64,000 bases of DNA from Egicoccus sp. AB-alg6-2 (lineage in GTDB: Bacteria > Actinomycetota > Nitriliruptoria > Nitriliruptorales > Nitriliruptoraceae), in contig NZ_JBGUAY010000001.1 in the NCBI RefSeq assembly GCF_041821025.1, positions 62,001 to 126,000 on the forward strand, read 5' to 3'. The translations under genes and the position numbers were made by a program. Below are positions 27,864 through 35,240 of this stretch, piece after piece. Numbering within the stretch: position 1 is the first letter of the stretch; every line of letters begins with the position of its first letter. A model generated the notes under the pieces. That model saw nothing but the letters and a program-made list of their open reading frames with translations. It was not told where the DNA came from and did no database searches.

Positions 27864-29207
27864 TCAGTCGACGTTGCCGGGCCGTGCGACGACCAGTCCC
27901 AGCACGACCTGGGGCACCTGCAGGCCGACCAGCACCAGCAGCGGGGGCGTCCATGAGCCGGTGGCGTCGTGGAGCAACCCGATCGCGACGGGCCCGCTCG
28001 CGGCGATGAGGTAGCCGACGCCCTGGCTGAGCGCCGACAGACTCGCGGTGCCCTCCGGTCCCCGGGCCCGCAGGCCGATCAGGACCAGCGCCAGCGGGAA
28101 AGCACCCATCCCGAGCCCGACGAGGGCCGCCCACACCACCGGCAGGGCGGCCGGTGCCACGAGCAGGCCGAGGTAGCCCGTGACGGCCAGGCTGCCCAGC
28201 AGCACCACGTAGATGCGCTGGTCGTCGCGCCGCGCGGCGAGTTCGGGCAGCACGATGCTGATCGGCGCACCGATCAGGGTCACCAGTGCCAGCAGCAGCC
28301 CGGCCCGGGCGGCATCGACCCCGGCGTCCTGGTAGATCGACGGCAGCCATCCCATCACGGCGTAGGCGCCGAGGCTCTGCAGCCCGAAGTAGCCGGCGAG
28401 GGCCCAGGCCTTGAACTGCCGGTGCACGGCGGGCCGCACGACGACCGGCGCGGCGTCGCTCGCCGTCGCTCGCCGGTCGGTCGCCGGCGGGCGGTCCGTG
28501 TCCGGCGGGTCGTTCGTGAGCGGCGGGCGGTCCGCGTCCGACGGGCGGTCCGTCGCCGGGGCATCGTCGGTCGGCGCGCGCCCGCGCAGCCACAGCCACG
28601 CCGGCACGGCGGCGAGCGGAGGCAGGGCCCAAACGCCCAGACCGGCGCGCCACGAGCCGAACGCCTCGGCGATCGGCACGGATGCCGCGGCCGCGATGGC
28701 CGTGCCGACCGCCAGCGCCATCGAGTACAGCCCGGTCGCCCGGCCGACGTGGCGGGGGAACCAGCGTTTCACGGCGACCGGCATCAGCACGTTGCCGATC
28801 CCCATGCCGGCCAGGGCGGGCACCGTCCACGCCAGGACCGCCTCGGGCCGGTCGACCAGCACCCGACCCAGGAGGCTGACGGAGGTCAGCACCATCGCGG
28901 CGCTCAACACCAGGGCCGTGTCGCGCCGCCGGGCCCACCGGCCGATCAGCAGCCCGAACACGCCGAAGCAGATCGGGGGCAGCGTGGTGACCACCCCGGC
29001 CAGCGCCGACGGCATGCCGATGTCCTGGCGCAGATCCGGCAGCAGCGCACCGAAGCTGGTGACCGCGGGCCGGAGGTTCAGCGCCGTCAGCACGACCGCC
29101 AGTGCCGCGAGCAGGTCCATCGCACCCAGCGGGCCGCTCCGACGCGACCAGCGTTGCGACGCCGCCCGTCCGGCCGCGCCGTCGGGGCGGTGCGGGGTGG
29201 AGGGCAC
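27864..29207 (-). CDS. CynX/NimT-type MFS transporter
   Basis: A 12-helix exporter-like permease of 447 residues. The signature LNLRPAVTSFGALLPDLRQDIGM in the first helix is typical of the cyanate permease/nitroimidazole (CynX/NimT) branch; the substrate is unknown. The loop between helices 6 and 7 is a run of Asp/Arg/Pro/Thr repeats encoded by four 18-base DNA repeats. GTG 29207 overlaps the upstream dehydrogenase stop by one base (TAGTG); ATG 29120 is an alternative that starts at the first helix. Confidence 0.87.
   Translation of the reverse strand: MPSTPHRPDGAAGRAASQRWSRRSGPLGAMDLLAALAVVLTALNLRPAVTSFGALLPDLRQDIGMPSALAGVVTTLPPICFGVFGLLIGRWARRRDTALVLSAAMVLTSVSLLGRVLVDRPEAVLAWTVPALAGMGIGNVLMPVAVKRWFPRHVGRATGLYSMALAVGTAIAAAASVPIAEAFGSWRAGLGVWALPPLAAVPAWLWLRGRAPTDDAPATDRPSDADRPPLTNDPPDTDRPPATDRRATASDAAPVVVRPAVHRQFKAWALAGYFGLQSLGAYAVMGWLPSIYQDAGVDAARAGLLLALVTLIGAPISIVLPELAARRDDQRIYVVLLGSLAVTGYLGLLVAPAALPVVWAALVGLGMGAFPLALVLIGLRARGPEGTASLSALSQGVGYLIAASGPVAIGLLHDATGSWTPPLLVLVGLQVPQVVLGLVVARPGNVD
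28486..28557. repeat. Four 18-base tandem repeats in transporter loop
   Basis: Four contiguous 18-mers of the type GGCGGGCGGTCCGYGTCC, imperfect, encode the Asp-Arg-Pro-Pro/Ser-rich cytoplasmic loop of the MFS transporter. The unit keeps the reading frame, so copy number can vary without frameshift. Confidence 0.75.
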
Positions 29208-30712
29208 TAGCGGTGCAGGTCCGGGTCGTGTTGACGGACCCGCGAACGCACGGTGTGGATCGCGGCGCCGGAAAGGATGCCGCTGCGGCCGAAGAGGCGC
29301 CCGAGTTCCCAGTTCGACAGCCCGAGCTCGGGCGTACCCAGCGCGTACTGGCCGTCCACCCAGCGGGTGAAGCCGTCGCCGACGTACGGCGCCTCGGCGA
29401 GCCGCCAGGCACGGTCGAGGTCGGCCGGGTGGGAGGAGAGCACCGACAACACGAACCGGGGACTGTGGCGGTTGAACAGCGACACGGCGTGGTCGAGGTC
29501 GTCGACGACCACCAGTGACACCTCGGGGCTGTTCTCCCACTCCCACTCGGTACCGAGGTCGGCGTCGTCGAGCGGCTGCGCCCACGGCTCCTGTGCCGTA
29601 CCCGTGGCGCGTTCGATCGCGACCTCGGCGGCGAACCGCTCGTCGGGGACGAAGGCCAGGCTGGACCGCAGGACGTGCAGTTTCGCGTTCGCGTCGCGCT
29701 CGGCGGCGGCCCGGTCCAGTGCGTCGAGGAAGACGGGCACGAGGTCCTCGGCGCGGTCACGGGCGATGCAGCAGACGTTGAGGGTGTTGCAGACCTTGCG
29801 GTCGAGCGAGTGTCGGACCGCGGCGGCGAACCGTTCCGCGTCGGCGTCGCTGGTCGCGACCAGCCAGGCGCCACCGGTGCCGTGCGCGGACACCGCGTTG
29901 CCGGCCTGCTGTGCCACGGCCGACAGCTGGCGTACCGCCTCGCCGGAGCCCCGGGCGACGGCCAGCGCCAGCCGTGGGTCGGCGAACAGTGCCCAGCCCG
30001 CTGCGTGCGACGGCGCGTCGACCAGCGAGGCAGCACCCGGTGGCAGGCCGGCGACCTCGAGGGCCGGATCGAGCGCGTGCATGACGATCGCCCGTGCCGT
30101 CCGGAGGGCGTCGGAGCCGATGCGGAACACGACGGTGTTGCCCCCGCGCAGCACGCCGCAGGCGTCCGCGAAGACGTTGGGGCGTCCCTCGAACACGAAC
30201 GCGACCACGCCGAGCCGGTCACTGACCTGCTCCAGGGTCCAGCCGTCGTGGTCGAGCGTGTCGAGGACCCGCCCGCGGGGCGAGGGGATCCGGGTCCAGT
30301 TGCGCAGTCCGGCCACCATGTCGGCCCGCATCCGGTCGGTGAGGACCAGGCGCGTGGTCGAGCGGCCGCGGTCGCGCGCGGCGGCGACGTCGTCGGCGTT
30401 GGCGGCGGCGATCGGCGCGAACCGCTCCTCGTCCTCGAGGTGGTCGGCGAACGCGGTGTAGAACGCATCGAGGCGGTCGTCGTCGATCTCGCCCATCGCG
30501 GCGAAGGCCGCCGTCGCGGCTTCGACGGCGGTCCGCGCCGCCACGCGGTCCGCTTCGGGCAGGTGCAGGATCTCACCCGTGTCCTGGAGCACGACCAGCG
30601 CGTCACCTGCCGAGAACGCGGCCGCCAGACGCGGGTCGACGTGCGTGACCCGGTCGCCGCCGAAGAGCAGCGGCTGGCCGGGTTGCAGCGATTCGAGCGG
30701 TTGGACGTCCAT
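29207..30712 (-). CDS. ProA-like aldehyde dehydrogenase family protein
   Basis: Resembles glutamate-5-semialdehyde dehydrogenase (ProA), which reduces gamma-glutamyl phosphate. Matching stretches are GVVAFVFEGRPNVFADA (near 168-184), the KVCNTLN motif holding the probable catalytic Cys308, and the end region SNWELGRLFGRSGIL. At 501 residues it is about 80 longer than ProA, mostly N-terminal, and the nucleotide-binding part is divergent. No proB is nearby. It could be a true ProA, or a paralogue with another aldehyde substrate. ATG 30712 fits. It is coupled to the MFS gene by a one-base overlap. Confidence 0.7.
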   Translation of the reverse strand: MDVQPLESLQPGQPLLFGGDRVTHVDPRLAAAFSAGDALVVLQDTGEILHLPEADRVAARTAVEAATAAFAAMGEIDDDRLDAFYTAFADHLEDEERFAPIAAANADDVAAARDRGRSTTRLVLTDRMRADMVAGLRNWTRIPSPRGRVLDTLDHDGWTLEQVSDRLGVVAFVFEGRPNVFADACGVLRGGNTVVFRIGSDALRTARAIVMHALDPALEVAGLPPGAASLVDAPSHAAGWALFADPRLALAVARGSGEAVRQLSAVAQQAGNAVSAHGTGGAWLVATSDADAERFAAAVRHSLDRKVCNTLNVCCIARDRAEDLVPVFLDALDRAAAERDANAKLHVLRSSLAFVPDERFAAEVAIERATGTAQEPWAQPLDDADLGTEWEWENSPEVSLVVVDDLDHAVSLFNRHSPRFVLSVLSSHPADLDRAWRLAEAPYVGDGFTRWVDGQYALGTPELGLSNWELGRLFGRSGILSGAAIHTVRSRVRQHDPDLHR

Positions 30713-30814
30713 GGCACCCAACGTAGCCTGGGCCAGATGCGTGGCCCGTCCGTCGCGACCGCCAGCATCGAACCCCGCGCGTCCCGTGACCCAGACCGAG
30801 GGTGACCCCGCTCC

Positions 30815-31720
30815 GTGACCGATCCACGTGCCGTCCTGCGCATCGGCGAGGTCTCGCGCCGTACGGGCGTCGCCGTGCCGACCCTGCGGGCGTGGGAACG
30901 ACGCTACGGCCTGTTGTCCCCTGACCGGACCGACGGCGGGCACCGCCTCTACAGCGACCGTGACGTGCATCGGGTCGTGGCCATGACCGGTCTTCTCGAG
31001 CAGGGCTGGTCGGCGGCCGCCGCGGCCCGCGAGGTGCTGCGTGCGCCCGCGACGGTCACCCGGCTACGACCGGTCGGGAGGGACGGTACGGCGGCGACGA
31101 GCCTGATCGAGCGCCTGCGTGCCGCGATCGACGCCTTCGACGCGCCGGCGGCGGAGGGCGTCGTCGACGACGTCATGGCACGGTTCGAGATCCCGCGCGC
31201 CCTGGACGAGGTGCTGCTGCCGGTGCTCCGCCAGTTGGGCGACGGCTGGGAGCAGGACCCGCGCGTCATCGCCCGCGAGCACTTCGCGACCAACACGCTG
31301 CGTCCCCGCCTGCAGCGCCTGCTCCGTGGTCAGGCGCGTTCCACGGGCGCGGGCGTGGTCGCGGTCGCTCCCGAGGGCGAGGAGCACGACCTGGGACTGC
31401 TGGCGGCGGCCGCCGTGGCGGCGGACGCCGGCTGGCGGGTCCACTATCTCGGCGCACGCACGCCGACGCCCGCGATCGAGCGCGCCGTCGAGGAACTGGA
31501 TCCCGAGGTCGTGCTGGTCGGCGCCGTCTTCCGCGAGCATGCCGAGGCGTTCCTGGCCGGGGGCCCGGCCTTCGTGCGCGCGGGGGTGGTGCTCGGCGGA
31601 AGTGGCTTCGTGCCCGCCGACACCGCGAGGCTGCCGGGCGCGGTCGTCCACCGGGGCGCGCTCACCGAGATCCCGGCCAGCCTGGACCGTGCCGTCGCGG
31701 CGCGGCACGACGTGGTCTGA
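30815..31720 (+). CDS. carH: MerR-type regulator with B12-binding domain (CarH-like photoreceptor candidate)
   Basis: CarH proteins bind adenosylcobalamin, repress in the dark and release DNA in light. The 301-residue protein has an N-terminal MerR domain (RIGEVSRRTGVAVPTLRAWERRYG, 9-32), a four-helix cap and a C-terminal cobalamin fold. Trp145 and Glu155-His156 form the Wx9EH motif that defines AdoCbl light sensing. The base-off ligand motif ExHxxG is at Glu189-His191-Gly194. GTG 30815 is the start. It is divergent from the ProA-like/MFS pair, which are candidate targets. Light sensing is inferred from these motifs. Confidence 0.85.
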   Translation: MTDPRAVLRIGEVSRRTGVAVPTLRAWERRYGLLSPDRTDGGHRLYSDRDVHRVVAMTGLLEQGWSAAAAAREVLRAPATVTRLRPVGRDGTAATSLIERLRAAIDAFDAPAAEGVVDDVMARFEIPRALDEVLLPVLRQLGDGWEQDPRVIAREHFATNTLRPRLQRLLRGQARSTGAGVVAVAPEGEEHDLGLLAAAAVAADAGWRVHYLGARTPTPAIERAVEELDPEVVLVGAVFREHAEAFLAGGPAFVRAGVVLGGSGFVPADTARLPGAVVHRGALTEIPASLDRAVAARHDVV

Positions 31721-31733
31721 CCCGGCTCCGCCT

Positions 31734-31765
31734 CGACACTCCCGGATCGGGATCCCGAGCGTGTC
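31734..31765. terminator. Hairpin between converging carH-like and dodecin genes
   Basis: GACACTC pairs with GAG-C-GTGTC around an inner CGGGATCCCG palindrome in the gap between two converging genes. There is no U-tract, as is usual in very GC-rich actinobacteria. It could stop transcription both ways. Confidence 0.4.
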
Positions 31766-31793
31766 CGGTCGCCCTACGGGATCAGCGGCGGGG

Positions 31794-31997
31794 TCAGCGG
31801 CTGATCCGGAACTTGATCCGCACGTGCGTGTGGTACTCGCTGATCTCGGTGCCCTCGACCACCGCCGAGGTGTCGAGCACGCTGAACCCCTCCACGTTGC
31901 GAAGGGTCTTGGTGGCCTCCTCGAGTGCCTTGTGCGCGGCGTCGCGCCAGGACTCGGTGGACACGCCGACCAGGTCGATTGTCTTGATGACCGCCAT
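31794..31997 (-). CDS. Dodecin (flavin-storage protein)
   Basis: A 67-residue protein that assembles into a hollow dodecamer and binds riboflavin, FMN or FAD pairs, buffering and photo-protecting flavins. The sequence shows the family pattern: KTIDLVGVSTESWRDAAHKA, VEGFSVLDTSAVVEG and a final strand YHTHVRIKFRI. The Trp in SxESWxDA is the flavin-stacking residue. It is transcribed toward the CarH-like gene; both deal with light-sensitive cofactors, though no shared control is visible. Confidence 0.92.
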   Translation of the reverse strand: MAVIKTIDLVGVSTESWRDAAHKALEEATKTLRNVEGFSVLDTSAVVEGTEISEYHTHVRIKFRISR

Positions 31998-32087: not shown

Positions 32088-32918
32088 TCACGCCACGCGC
32101 GTCGCCGCGGCGATCGCCTGGCGCAGCCGGTCGGCGATCGCGGTCGCCGCCGCGTCGTCGTCGAGCACGCCCGTGCGCCACTGCGCGAGCGCATCCGACC
32201 AGATGGAGGGGCCCAGCACGAAACCGCGGTAGCCCGCGACGCCGGCGACGCGGCCGAGCGCGGCCACGACGTCGTGGTCGGTCGCGTCGGTGCCGTCGCG
32301 CACGAGGACGCCGACGTCGTCGCGTCCGGCGTCCCGGACGAGTTCGGCGACCGCCGCGGCCTCCTCGACGTCGCGGGGGGCCGGGAGCGCCCACAGGTCG
32401 GCCTCGATGCCGACCTCGCGCACCTCCCGGACCGACTTCAACCAGGTGTCGAGGCGGTCGGCGTCCGACGCCGACGGACCCGTGGGCTCGAGGTCGACGA
32501 GCAGCACCCGGTCGGTCTCGTGCAGCCACGCCGACAGGCGGGTCAGCTCCAGCGCCTGGGCCTTCTTGGCGTCGGGGTCGAGGTCGGGGCCCCATCGCAC
32601 CTCGACCTGGGCGATGCGCGGGGAGAACCGGTCGACGAACGCACCGAAGTCGTCACCCGGCGCGAGGCTGAACTCGGCGGCACCACCGCTCAGCGGCAGG
32701 ACCAGCTGGATCGACTCGCCCGGTATCGCGTCGGCCAGTCGCTGCTGCGTGCGCCCGTCGACGAGCACCCCGAGGTCGGTCGGGTCGGCCGCGCTTCCGG
32801 CGGCACCCACCTGCTGGATCCCGCTCCAGACGAGGGCGGCCGCCTGCGCGTCGAGGGCAGCGCCCCCACGGTCACCGAAGCGCACCGCGTACAGGGCACG
32901 GTCGTAACCAGGCTGCAC
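32088..32918 (-). CDS. DUF2090-type (LacD/aldolase-fold-like) protein
   Basis: 276 residues starting GYDRALYAVRFGDRGG and ending in a stretch like GFVLGPSIWSDALAQWRTGVLDDDAA, both patterns of DUF2090. That domain occurs in myo-inositol pathway kinases (IolC fusions) and in stand-alone proteins thought to have a class-I aldolase-like barrel. The usual Schiff-base Lys cannot be assigned with confidence. GTG 32918 follows a GGAGAGGTGG stretch. It is alone on its strand, 90 bases upstream of dodecin. Confidence 0.7.
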   Translation of the reverse strand: MQPGYDRALYAVRFGDRGGAALDAQAAALVWSGIQQVGAAGSAADPTDLGVLVDGRTQQRLADAIPGESIQLVLPLSGGAAEFSLAPGDDFGAFVDRFSPRIAQVEVRWGPDLDPDAKKAQALELTRLSAWLHETDRVLLVDLEPTGPSASDADRLDTWLKSVREVREVGIEADLWALPAPRDVEEAAAVAELVRDAGRDDVGVLVRDGTDATDHDVVAALGRVAGVAGYRGFVLGPSIWSDALAQWRTGVLDDDAAATAIADRLRQAIAAATRVA

Positions 32919-33028: not shown

Positions 33029-33292
33029 TCAGCGCAACAAGAAGGTGATCGACATCCCGACGATCATGGCGAGGGCGGCGACGATCGCGGCCGGCATGCC
33101 CAGCCGGCTGCCCTTGACGTGGGCGATGAGCCCGAGCGCCATGCCGAGCGGGCCCAGGAACACCTCGGCGTAGCTGACGACGCTGAGCACGGCACAGGCC
33201 AGCGCAAGGACCGCGAGCGGAGTCGCGAACCGGGGCGACGCCTCGACGGGAGCGAAGGGGTCGCGATCGGATGCCTGCGCCCGTTTCGCCAC
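33029..33292 (-). CDS. Small membrane protein (DUF4190-like)
   Basis: 87 residues with three hydrophobic stretches (about 25-45, 47-62 and 68-86) and a Lys-Gly-Ser turn (HVKGSRLG) like DUF4190 proteins. No function is known. GTG 33292 has AGGAGG 7 bases upstream. It begins 19 bases after the GDPD-PAP2 gene ends on the same strand, so the two may be co-transcribed. Confidence 0.75.
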   Translation of the reverse strand: MAKRAQASDRDPFAPVEASPRFATPLAVLALACAVLSVVSYAEVFLGPLGMALGLIAHVKGSRLGMPAAIVAALAMIVGMSITFLLR

Positions 33293-33311
33293 GGCGGTCC
33301 TCCTGGGGTGC

Positions 33312-35240
33312 TCAGGCGCGCAAGGTATCCCGTCGGGCGTGCGCGTCCGGGCCCGTCGTCGTGGGTGCCGGCGCCGGGGCCGCGAGGCCGAGGCGCACGA
33401 ACAGCAGCGGCGCGAGACCACCGACCCAGGCCCCGACGAGGAGGTAGCGCAGGTAGCGCAGGACGAGTGCCACGACGTCGCCGCCGTCCGGGAAGAGTGC
33501 GCCGAGTCCCTGCCACAGCACGACCACGCCGACCAGGCCGACGGCGACGCGTCCGGCTCGCCGGCCCAGCGGTCCCCCGCTGTCGAAGCCGCCGCGGGGC
33601 AGCAGCAGGGCGAGCCCGATGGCGAGTCCCGCGAGGGTGGCCGCCGGGGTCACGACGTCGGCGAACCCGCTCGCCTCGGCCGGGTCGAGCAGGCCCGGCC
33701 AACCCGGGTCGATGCCGCGCAGCCGACCCGAGAGCAGCCCGCCGACCAGGATGAGCGTCCAGGACGCGACCACGGCCGCCATGACCCATTCGACGGGGCC
33801 ACGGGCGGCCGCCCATCGGCGCACGCGGGGTTCGAGCAGCAGGAACAGCACGAGCAGGATCGCGCCGACCGCCCAGCCCACCAGGATGTCCTCGACGAAG
33901 TGCGCGCCCAGGTGGATCCGCGACCAGCCGATGGCCAGGATCAGCCCCACCAGCGCGACCCGGACCCACCAGCGTCGCAGACGCACCGCCAGCAGGCCCC
34001 ACACGGCGGCGCCGTTCTGGGCGTGTCCGGACGGGATGCCATAGGTGGCTTCCGGCACCCGCTCCAGCGACGGGTCCAGGAACGCCGGCCGGGGCGTGAC
34101 GGCCACCAACTTCCCGATCGAGTTGATGCTGGCGGTCGCGAGCAGCATCACGCCGAGGCGGACGCCGAGGCGGCGGCTCACGGCCCAGTACAGCAACGGG
34201 AAGGCGAGCAGGTAGAACTCCTCGTCGCCGAGGAAGGTGACCGCGTGCAACACCGTGGTCCGCCAGCCCGGCCCGGCCTGCAGGTCCGCCGCACGCTGCA
34301 GCTGGACGCCGTACCCCCCGGGATCGGCCGCCTCGGCCAGCGCTCGCTCCTCGAGCACCTGCACGAGCCGGTCGGGGAAGTCGGTCATGATGCCGTGCAC
34401 GCCCGCGTCGAGGAGGCGGTGCATCTGTTCGGGCTCGTTGACCGTCCAGACCTGTACGTCCACGCCCAGGCGTTCCGCCGCACGCACGAAGCGGGGCGTG
34501 ACGACGCGCCGGCCGTCGTGGAACTCGGGGACCTGGAACACCGCGCCGGGCGGCGTCCACCAGGGGTGCAGCCCGACGAGTTGGCGGACGTAGAAGCCGG
34601 TCGTCTCGCCCTCGGGCATGTTGGTGGGCACGTCGGGCAGGGCGGCCCGGACCGGTTCGAGGTAGTCGGTCGAGAAGCTCGCGACCGTGACGCTGCCGTC
34701 GTCGCGACCGTACGCGCGCAGCAGGTCGATCACCGGTTCGGCGATCGCGACCGGTGACTCCGTCTTGAGCTCCACGACCAGGTGCGTGTCGGGATAGCGG
34801 TCGAGCACCTCACGCAGCGTCGGGATCCGGACACCGGCACCGCGGAACGGATACGCGCCGTCGGCGTCCTCGAAGTACCACCCGGCGTCGAGTGCCCGCA
34901 GCTCCGCCAGGGTCAGGTCGACGACCGCGCCGGTGGCACCGGTGGTCCGGTCGACGGTGCCGTCGTGGATGACGACCACCTCGGCGTCGGCGGTGAGCTG
35001 CAGGTCCATCTCCAGGACGTGCGCGCCCTGCTCGAGCGCGACGTCGAACGCGACCAGCGTGTTGGTGGGCGCGTGCCCCTGGGCGCCGGAGTGGGCGATG
35101 ACGCTGACGTCGTTGGCGGCGAAGTCCGGGACGCGGTCCCGGGGCGGGCCCTGCAGGGCCAGCGCGACGAGTCCGCACAGCAGGAGCACGCCGACGATGC
35201 CGAGCCGTCGACGACTGCGCTGCCCCAGGGTCCCCTCCAC
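33312..35240 (-). CDS. GDPD-PAP2 fusion membrane protein
   Basis: One 642-residue chain joins two lipid-headgroup hydrolase folds. After a membrane anchor (12-30), residues 43-300 form a glycerophosphodiester phosphodiesterase barrel with His50, EMD (77-79), His92-Asp93 and VELKTE. The classic HRG and PENT motifs read HSG and PTNT, so one metal-binding Glu is missing. From about 330 a PAP2/type-2 phosphatidic acid phosphatase follows with Lys377-x6-RP, PSGH (403-406) and SR-x5-H (440-447), then more helices. It may process phospholipids or teichoic-acid-like polymers outside the membrane. GTG 35240 follows AGGG. Confidence 0.87.
   Translation of the reverse strand: MEGTLGQRSRRRLGIVGVLLLCGLVALALQGPPRDRVPDFAANDVSVIAHSGAQGHAPTNTLVAFDVALEQGAHVLEMDLQLTADAEVVVIHDGTVDRTTGATGAVVDLTLAELRALDAGWYFEDADGAYPFRGAGVRIPTLREVLDRYPDTHLVVELKTESPVAIAEPVIDLLRAYGRDDGSVTVASFSTDYLEPVRAALPDVPTNMPEGETTGFYVRQLVGLHPWWTPPGAVFQVPEFHDGRRVVTPRFVRAAERLGVDVQVWTVNEPEQMHRLLDAGVHGIMTDFPDRLVQVLEERALAEAADPGGYGVQLQRAADLQAGPGWRTTVLHAVTFLGDEEFYLLAFPLLYWAVSRRLGVRLGVMLLATASINSIGKLVAVTPRPAFLDPSLERVPEATYGIPSGHAQNGAAVWGLLAVRLRRWWVRVALVGLILAIGWSRIHLGAHFVEDILVGWAVGAILLVLFLLLEPRVRRWAAARGPVEWVMAAVVASWTLILVGGLLSGRLRGIDPGWPGLLDPAEASGFADVVTPAATLAGLAIGLALLLPRGGFDSGGPLGRRAGRVAVGLVGVVVLWQGLGALFPDGGDVVALVLRYLRYLLVGAWVGGLAPLLFVRLGLAAPAPAPTTTGPDAHARRDTLRA

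Follow-up and report, generated by a model that had tools for sequence, protein, structure and literature searches.

The region analyzed here is a 64-kb window (G000:C1:62001-126000) of the 3.74-Mb, 98%-complete, high-GC genome of a salt-lake-type actinobacterium of the family Nitriliruptoraceae. Its forward strand codes for a 301-aa protein (30815-31720, GTG start) combining MerR, B12-binding_2 and B12-binding domains, which is the only close CarH homolog in this genome. Divergent from this gene, on the reverse strand, lies a gene for a 501-aa ProA-like protein (29207-30712), followed in the same direction by one for a CynX/NimT-family MFS transporter (27864-29171, start codon provisional). 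On its other side carH is arranged tail to tail with a gene for a 67-aa dodecin (31794-31997, reverse strand). The preliminary description had reported this divergent pair and the adjacent dodecin, and all the genes are present as it stated; its interval (30713-31997) spans carH and dodecin, with the operator candidate and promoters discussed below lying at 30701-30790. A small ORF of ~96 aa (33029-33319), for which Pfam and NCBIfam searches gave no match, is a neighbor of dodecin/carH in the family's related loci too; the gene for a DUF2090-like protein between it and the dodecin (32088-32918) is confined to this genus and G010.

Pfam profiles detect in the CarH-like protein a MerR domain (residues 9-72), a B12-binding_2 domain (97-169), which is a four-helix bundle, and a B12-binding domain (181-281), which is a Rossmann domain, all above the curated cut-offs. 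Its best solved relatives by sequence are chains of Thermus thermophilus CarH (TtCarH; 112 bits), and a Foldseek search with its AlphaFold2 model (mean pLDDT 90.4) yielded 50 listed matches, every one a TtCarH entry (best 2.5e-18), with the B12-binding half superposing on TtCarH at ~2.3 Å rmsd. The published signature of light-responsive B12 domains, namely GxxW, EH, GxxH and GxxxP (PMC11796333), is complete in the alignment as G142-W145, E155-H156, G188-H191 and G213-P217, encoded at 31238-31465 (+). GxxW, EH and GxxxP are found in 30/30 aligned homologs, across which W145, E155-H156 and H191 are invariant; this bears out the earlier assignment of the protein to the CarH type on the strength of intact Wx9EH (Trp145, His156) and ExHxxG (His191) motifs. 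With 149.2 bits it falls below the cut-off of 400 for the NCBIfam CarH equivalog NF052513, and is a relative of that family outside the curated equivalog. At the protein level its identity as a class I CarH/LitR is well supported. The genome encodes a PduO-type adenosyltransferase, so that AdoCbl can be made; a missing AdoCbl supply, considered since no CobO-type adenosyltransferase was found in the genome, is overruled by the enzyme of the PduO type.

The counterpart of TtCarH His132 is Glu146, and family orthologs have Gln, Glu or Arg at this position. On illumination His132 is recruited as a second histidine ligand (bis-His), and H132A TtCarH fails to monomerize (PMC11796333). Glu146 may alter the lit state. 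Given that other tested light-responsive proteins have Arg, Gln or Tyr here (PMC11796333), and that a Priestia CarH homolog (L159) has Glu, light sensing is compatible with this residue. The head-to-tail dimer of TtCarH is held by two salt bridges, R176-D201 and D178-R149 (PMC8221060). In the alignment, the R149-D178 pair is preserved as R163-D192 and the small residue G192 as G206, and the R176-D201 pair is charge-swapped to E190-R215. Sequences with R215 have Glu or Asp at position 190 in 20 of 20 cases, where TtCarH has the Arg/Asp pair, which suggests that the dimer surface remains under selection. As judged from the alignment, the contacts of the head-to-tail dimer appear compatible with those of TtCarH, with the first pair charge-swapped.

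Comparison of 23 related loci reveals that the carH-proA-dodecin order holds across Nitriliruptoraceae. The carH gene is divergent from the 501-aa ProA-like gene in 21 of them, the remaining two stopping at a contig edge, and is tail to tail with the dodecin, followed by the small ORF, in 19; the four dodecin-less carH loci belong to genus g12. In 12 of the 23, proA is followed by the MFS gene on the same strand. Two further genomes (G012 and G016; loci L095, L096) keep the proA-dodecin-ORF96 order with carH absent, apparently through natural losses that make them a natural control for what carH does, and two others (G005 and G017) retain proA in a different setting, likewise without carH. The presence of proA without carH in these four loci indicates that control by carH is not essential. 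A regulatory tie between carH and the dodecin found no support: two genomes dispense with carH while keeping proA-dodecin-ORF96, and the conserved element described below was not found upstream of the dodecin gene. The class, along with a few members of the family, also has another type of CarH-like protein, which shares 38-46% identity with that of the window. Its gene frequently diverges from one for a DUF4397 protein (the set L060:11917-12696, L061, L062, L057 and L059), with individual copies situated near a heliorhodopsin (L060), followed by methylmalonyl-CoA mutase (L057) or divergent from an ECF sigma factor (L059).

The best-known role of CarH is the switching of carotenoid genes. In agreement with the preliminary description, which had seen no carotenoid genes here, tblastn with the crt proteins of this very genome found none in the 64-kb window, and none were found in the related neighborhoods searched (L037-L066, L093-L096). 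The crt operon lies on another contig (G000:C4, ~259,500-267,000) and codes for GGPP synthase, phytoene synthase, lycopene cyclase, a glycosyltransferase, a P450 and a desaturase-like oxidase. Divergent from it is a gene for a MEDS-domain histidine kinase (L035:7616-9064, G000:C4), a candidate for the actual regulator of that operon.

The conserved divergent neighbor of carH had been described as a dehydrogenase, alongside a transporter and a flavin-storage protein; the three genes are there, and the first of them is here recast as, very probably, the only gamma-glutamyl phosphate reductase (ProA) of the organism. The 501-aa protein falls below the cut-off of the ProA family TIGR00407 (102.7 versus 317 bits). 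The solved structures most closely related to it are those of gamma-glutamyl phosphate reductases, among them PDB 4JBE, and the alignment includes the catalytic-region VCN motif. The same genome encodes a normal ProB (405 bits), and no other ProA was found in it (window 29207-30712 and G000:C7:148023 for the diverged ProA and the normal ProB). Across 28 genomes, canonical ProA above the cut-off is absent from 21/21 with the ProA-like gene and present in 7/7 without it, counting among the latter a G008 copy truncated at a contig end. This mutual exclusion, together with the relatedness to ProA, suggests that the ProA-like branch is most likely the ProA of Nitriliruptoraceae, standing in for the canonical enzyme. 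It differs from the latter in forming a separate and longer branch (501 aa; 103 of 317 bits), and recognizing it settles how a central enzyme of the family should be annotated. The carH gene would thus be divergent from a gene for a step of proline synthesis.

Proven CarH operators are described, in the passages of PMC9304148 that deal with them, as tandem 11-bp repeats of the form nnnnTnnACAn, often degenerate and varying widely among members, with one TtCarH dimer contacting repeats 1 and 3, which are 22 bp apart. The preliminary description had pointed to the interval 30713-30814 as the place to search for an operator. No tandem nnnnTnnACAn repeats were found in this gap, and across 22 readable carH-proA gaps (100 to 496 bp) two TnnACA repeats in phase were seen in L045 only, with single scattered matches elsewhere. 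The search did recover a conserved element with other letters: CCGTCC-N16-nCGAAC is common to 22/22 readable gaps, always in one orientation, with its halves 22 bp apart in 19 gaps and 21 bp apart in three. A scan of spacings from 12 to 33 returned 22 as the best (10 or more of the 11 letters matched in 16 gaps), followed by 33 (6 gaps). Further CGWMC copies are most frequent at +11 from CGAAC, a position occupied in six cases that comprise all four species of the window genus, in which this third copy is at +33 from the first, and two of g12, and hence at least two lineages. In the window the element occupies 30747-30790 (+) in four 11-bp steps: CGTCC (30747-30751), a degenerate step (30758-30768), CGAAC (30769-30773) and CGTCC (30780-30784). 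Its 11-bp phase fits that of CarH operators (22 bp = 2 x 11), but its letters differ from TnnACA.

As the motif was first chosen by eye, the initial shuffle test was biased; we therefore built leave-one-genus-out matrices, trained on the other genera only, and compared each gap with 200 dinucleotide shuffles. The best site in every left-out gap fell at the same element position. In 16 of the 22 gaps, which as orthologs are related by descent, 0/200 shuffles scored as well; three gaps were beaten by 1-2 of 200 shuffles and three g12 gaps by 4-8. The element is absent from 4/4 proA loci lacking carH, where the proA -10 persists, and was likewise not found at the crt operon region. A search for a larger regulon gave 56 sites with at most one mismatch in this genome versus 49-54 in genomes without this carH; a backward-pattern control for these counts was poor owing to CG content. 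There is one other perfect match in the genome (G000:C9:126784), a number equal to chance expectation; it sits among membrane-protein genes that by eye resemble a Na+/H+ antiporter cluster. Together, the phase, the conservation and the loss alongside carH suggest that the element is probably the site at which CarH binds in the dark, and we regard it as a candidate operator.

A sigma-A promoter for carH is predicted at 30701-30729 (+; TTGGAC at 30701-30706, a 17-bp spacer and TAGCCT at 30724-30729), and its hexamers are identical in the four species of the genus, even though the first lies within proA codons. On the opposite strand a -10 hexamer for proA, TACGTT (30720-30725, -), is predicted 7 nt before the ATG, pointing to a leaderless proA transcript. 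A proA-directed TAnnnT is present in 22/22 gaps and is placed ~7 nt before the proA ATG in nearly all genomes, the start codon being uncertain in three g12 gaps. In the window genus the element overlaps the -35 region predicted for proA, and the start predicted for carH transcription is a short way upstream of it.

In light of these observations, we propose that the CarH-like protein depends on AdoCbl to repress, in the dark, its own gene and, within this genus, proA as well, a reading to which we give about even chances. In the dark, the four-helix bundle and the Rossmann domain would hold AdoCbl between them, His191 serving as its lower ligand and Trp145 lying against its adenosyl group, and the AdoCbl-bound protein would form head-to-tail dimers and probably tetramers. 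These oligomers would bind the 11-bp-phased element, which spans positions from about +11 to about +54 relative to the predicted carH start, and so block transcription initiation of carH; in this genus, the leaderless promoter of proA would be blocked as well at its -35 region, from where the element extends upward. Light would break the Co-C bond, whereupon the oligomer would fall apart and release carH and proA(-MFS). Illumination would thereby increase the supply of proline precursor, which is plausible for a haloalkaliphile, where proline can be an osmolyte and a quencher of oxidants.

The most serious competitor of this proposal, although in our estimate an unlikely one, holds that the light-dependent repression by CarH is limited to carH itself, with the adjacency of proA being inherited gene order. 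It draws on the position of the element, which lies 32 to 428 bp from the proA start overall (42-428 bp in most other genera), versus 40-42 bp from the carH start in eight genomes of three genera, as well as on the persistence of the proA -10 in the carH-less loci and on ORF96 and dodecin being kept almost as faithfully as proA. Against it, the element lies over the proA -35 region, ~20 bp from the proA -10, in the window genus and also in two g12 genomes, and a one-gene regulon would be unusual for a CarH. In the other genera the element is mostly too far from proA for a direct block of that promoter to be likely. Its placement relative to carH varies as well, as in five genomes it lies upstream of the sole carH-directed TAnnnT; given these differences, the data establish neither a single uniform mechanism nor one specific to proA. 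Control of proA may therefore be confined to the window genus, or be weak, and this is the main reason why our confidence is moderate.

It appears improbable that the element is instead the core promoter of carH for an alternative sigma factor, with CCGTCC as the -35, CGAAC as the -10 and 17 bp between them. Its fixed orientation towards carH, the 17-bp inner gap and its loss together with carH would suit such a role; however, all four species of the genus have a sigma-A-like promoter (17-bp spacer) ahead of the element, whose distance to the carH start codon ranges from 15 to 247 bp, and sites are not in excess relative to genomes without this carH. The order of its halves is also the reverse of that in ECF promoters, which have an AAC-type -35 and a CGTC-type -10. 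Least probable to us is that the protein binds B12 and DNA but serves as a sensor of AdoCbl levels rather than as a light switch, as the loss of the bis-His ligand and the behavior of H132A TtCarH (PMC11796333) might hint were it not for the Arg, Gln, Tyr and Glu found in other light-responsive proteins and the Priestia homolog, or that it regulates distant genes such as the carotenoid operon, which does exist in the genome but has no element in its region.

The proposed dark repressor of carH and proA shares with TtCarH (PDB 5C8D/5C8E/5C8F), and with the class I LitR/CarH proteins of Bacillus megaterium, Myxococcus xanthus and Streptomyces coelicolor, the MerR, four-helix-bundle and Rossmann B12 domains and the GxxW/EH/GxxH/GxxxP signature, as well as a gene divergent from a target-like neighbor and an operator, here a candidate, in 11-bp steps. 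It differs from TtCarH in sequence (34% identity), in Glu146 for His132 and in the charge-swapped interface salt bridge, and from known CarH systems in having CGWMC in place of TnnACA in the candidate operator and proA in place of phytoene synthase or photolyase as the neighbor. The carH genes of the myxobacteria S. amylolyticus, L. luteola and N. exedens similarly lie apart from crt genes; however, the passages of PMC9304148 on them mention no conserved alternative neighbor, whereas here proA-carH is kept family-wide. The class II LitR proteins of Pseudomonas (PmlR2, PplR) also have light-induced non-carotenoid targets, namely photolyase, folE and ufaM, but retain one of the two B12-binding domains and act via LOV proteins (PMC9758184). 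The literature searched contained no paper linking CarH with dodecin, and none of the papers listed linked it with ProA. What is new here is the candidate operator, its absence where carH is missing, and the likely identity of the neighbor as the ProA of the family.

The 44-bp element may represent a DNA specificity new to CarH that could be put to use for controlling genes with green light in high-GC hosts, and the charge-swapped interface a natural and possibly orthogonal CarH pair. More broadly, though only tentatively, we suggest that in Nitriliruptoraceae a B12 photoreceptor may have left pigment control and come to switch proline biosynthesis via a new CGWMC 11-bp operator. If true, this would be a light sensor rewired to amino-acid or osmolyte metabolism and kept throughout the family beside its only proA, through which light would act directly on an osmolyte pathway of haloalkaliphilic bacteria.
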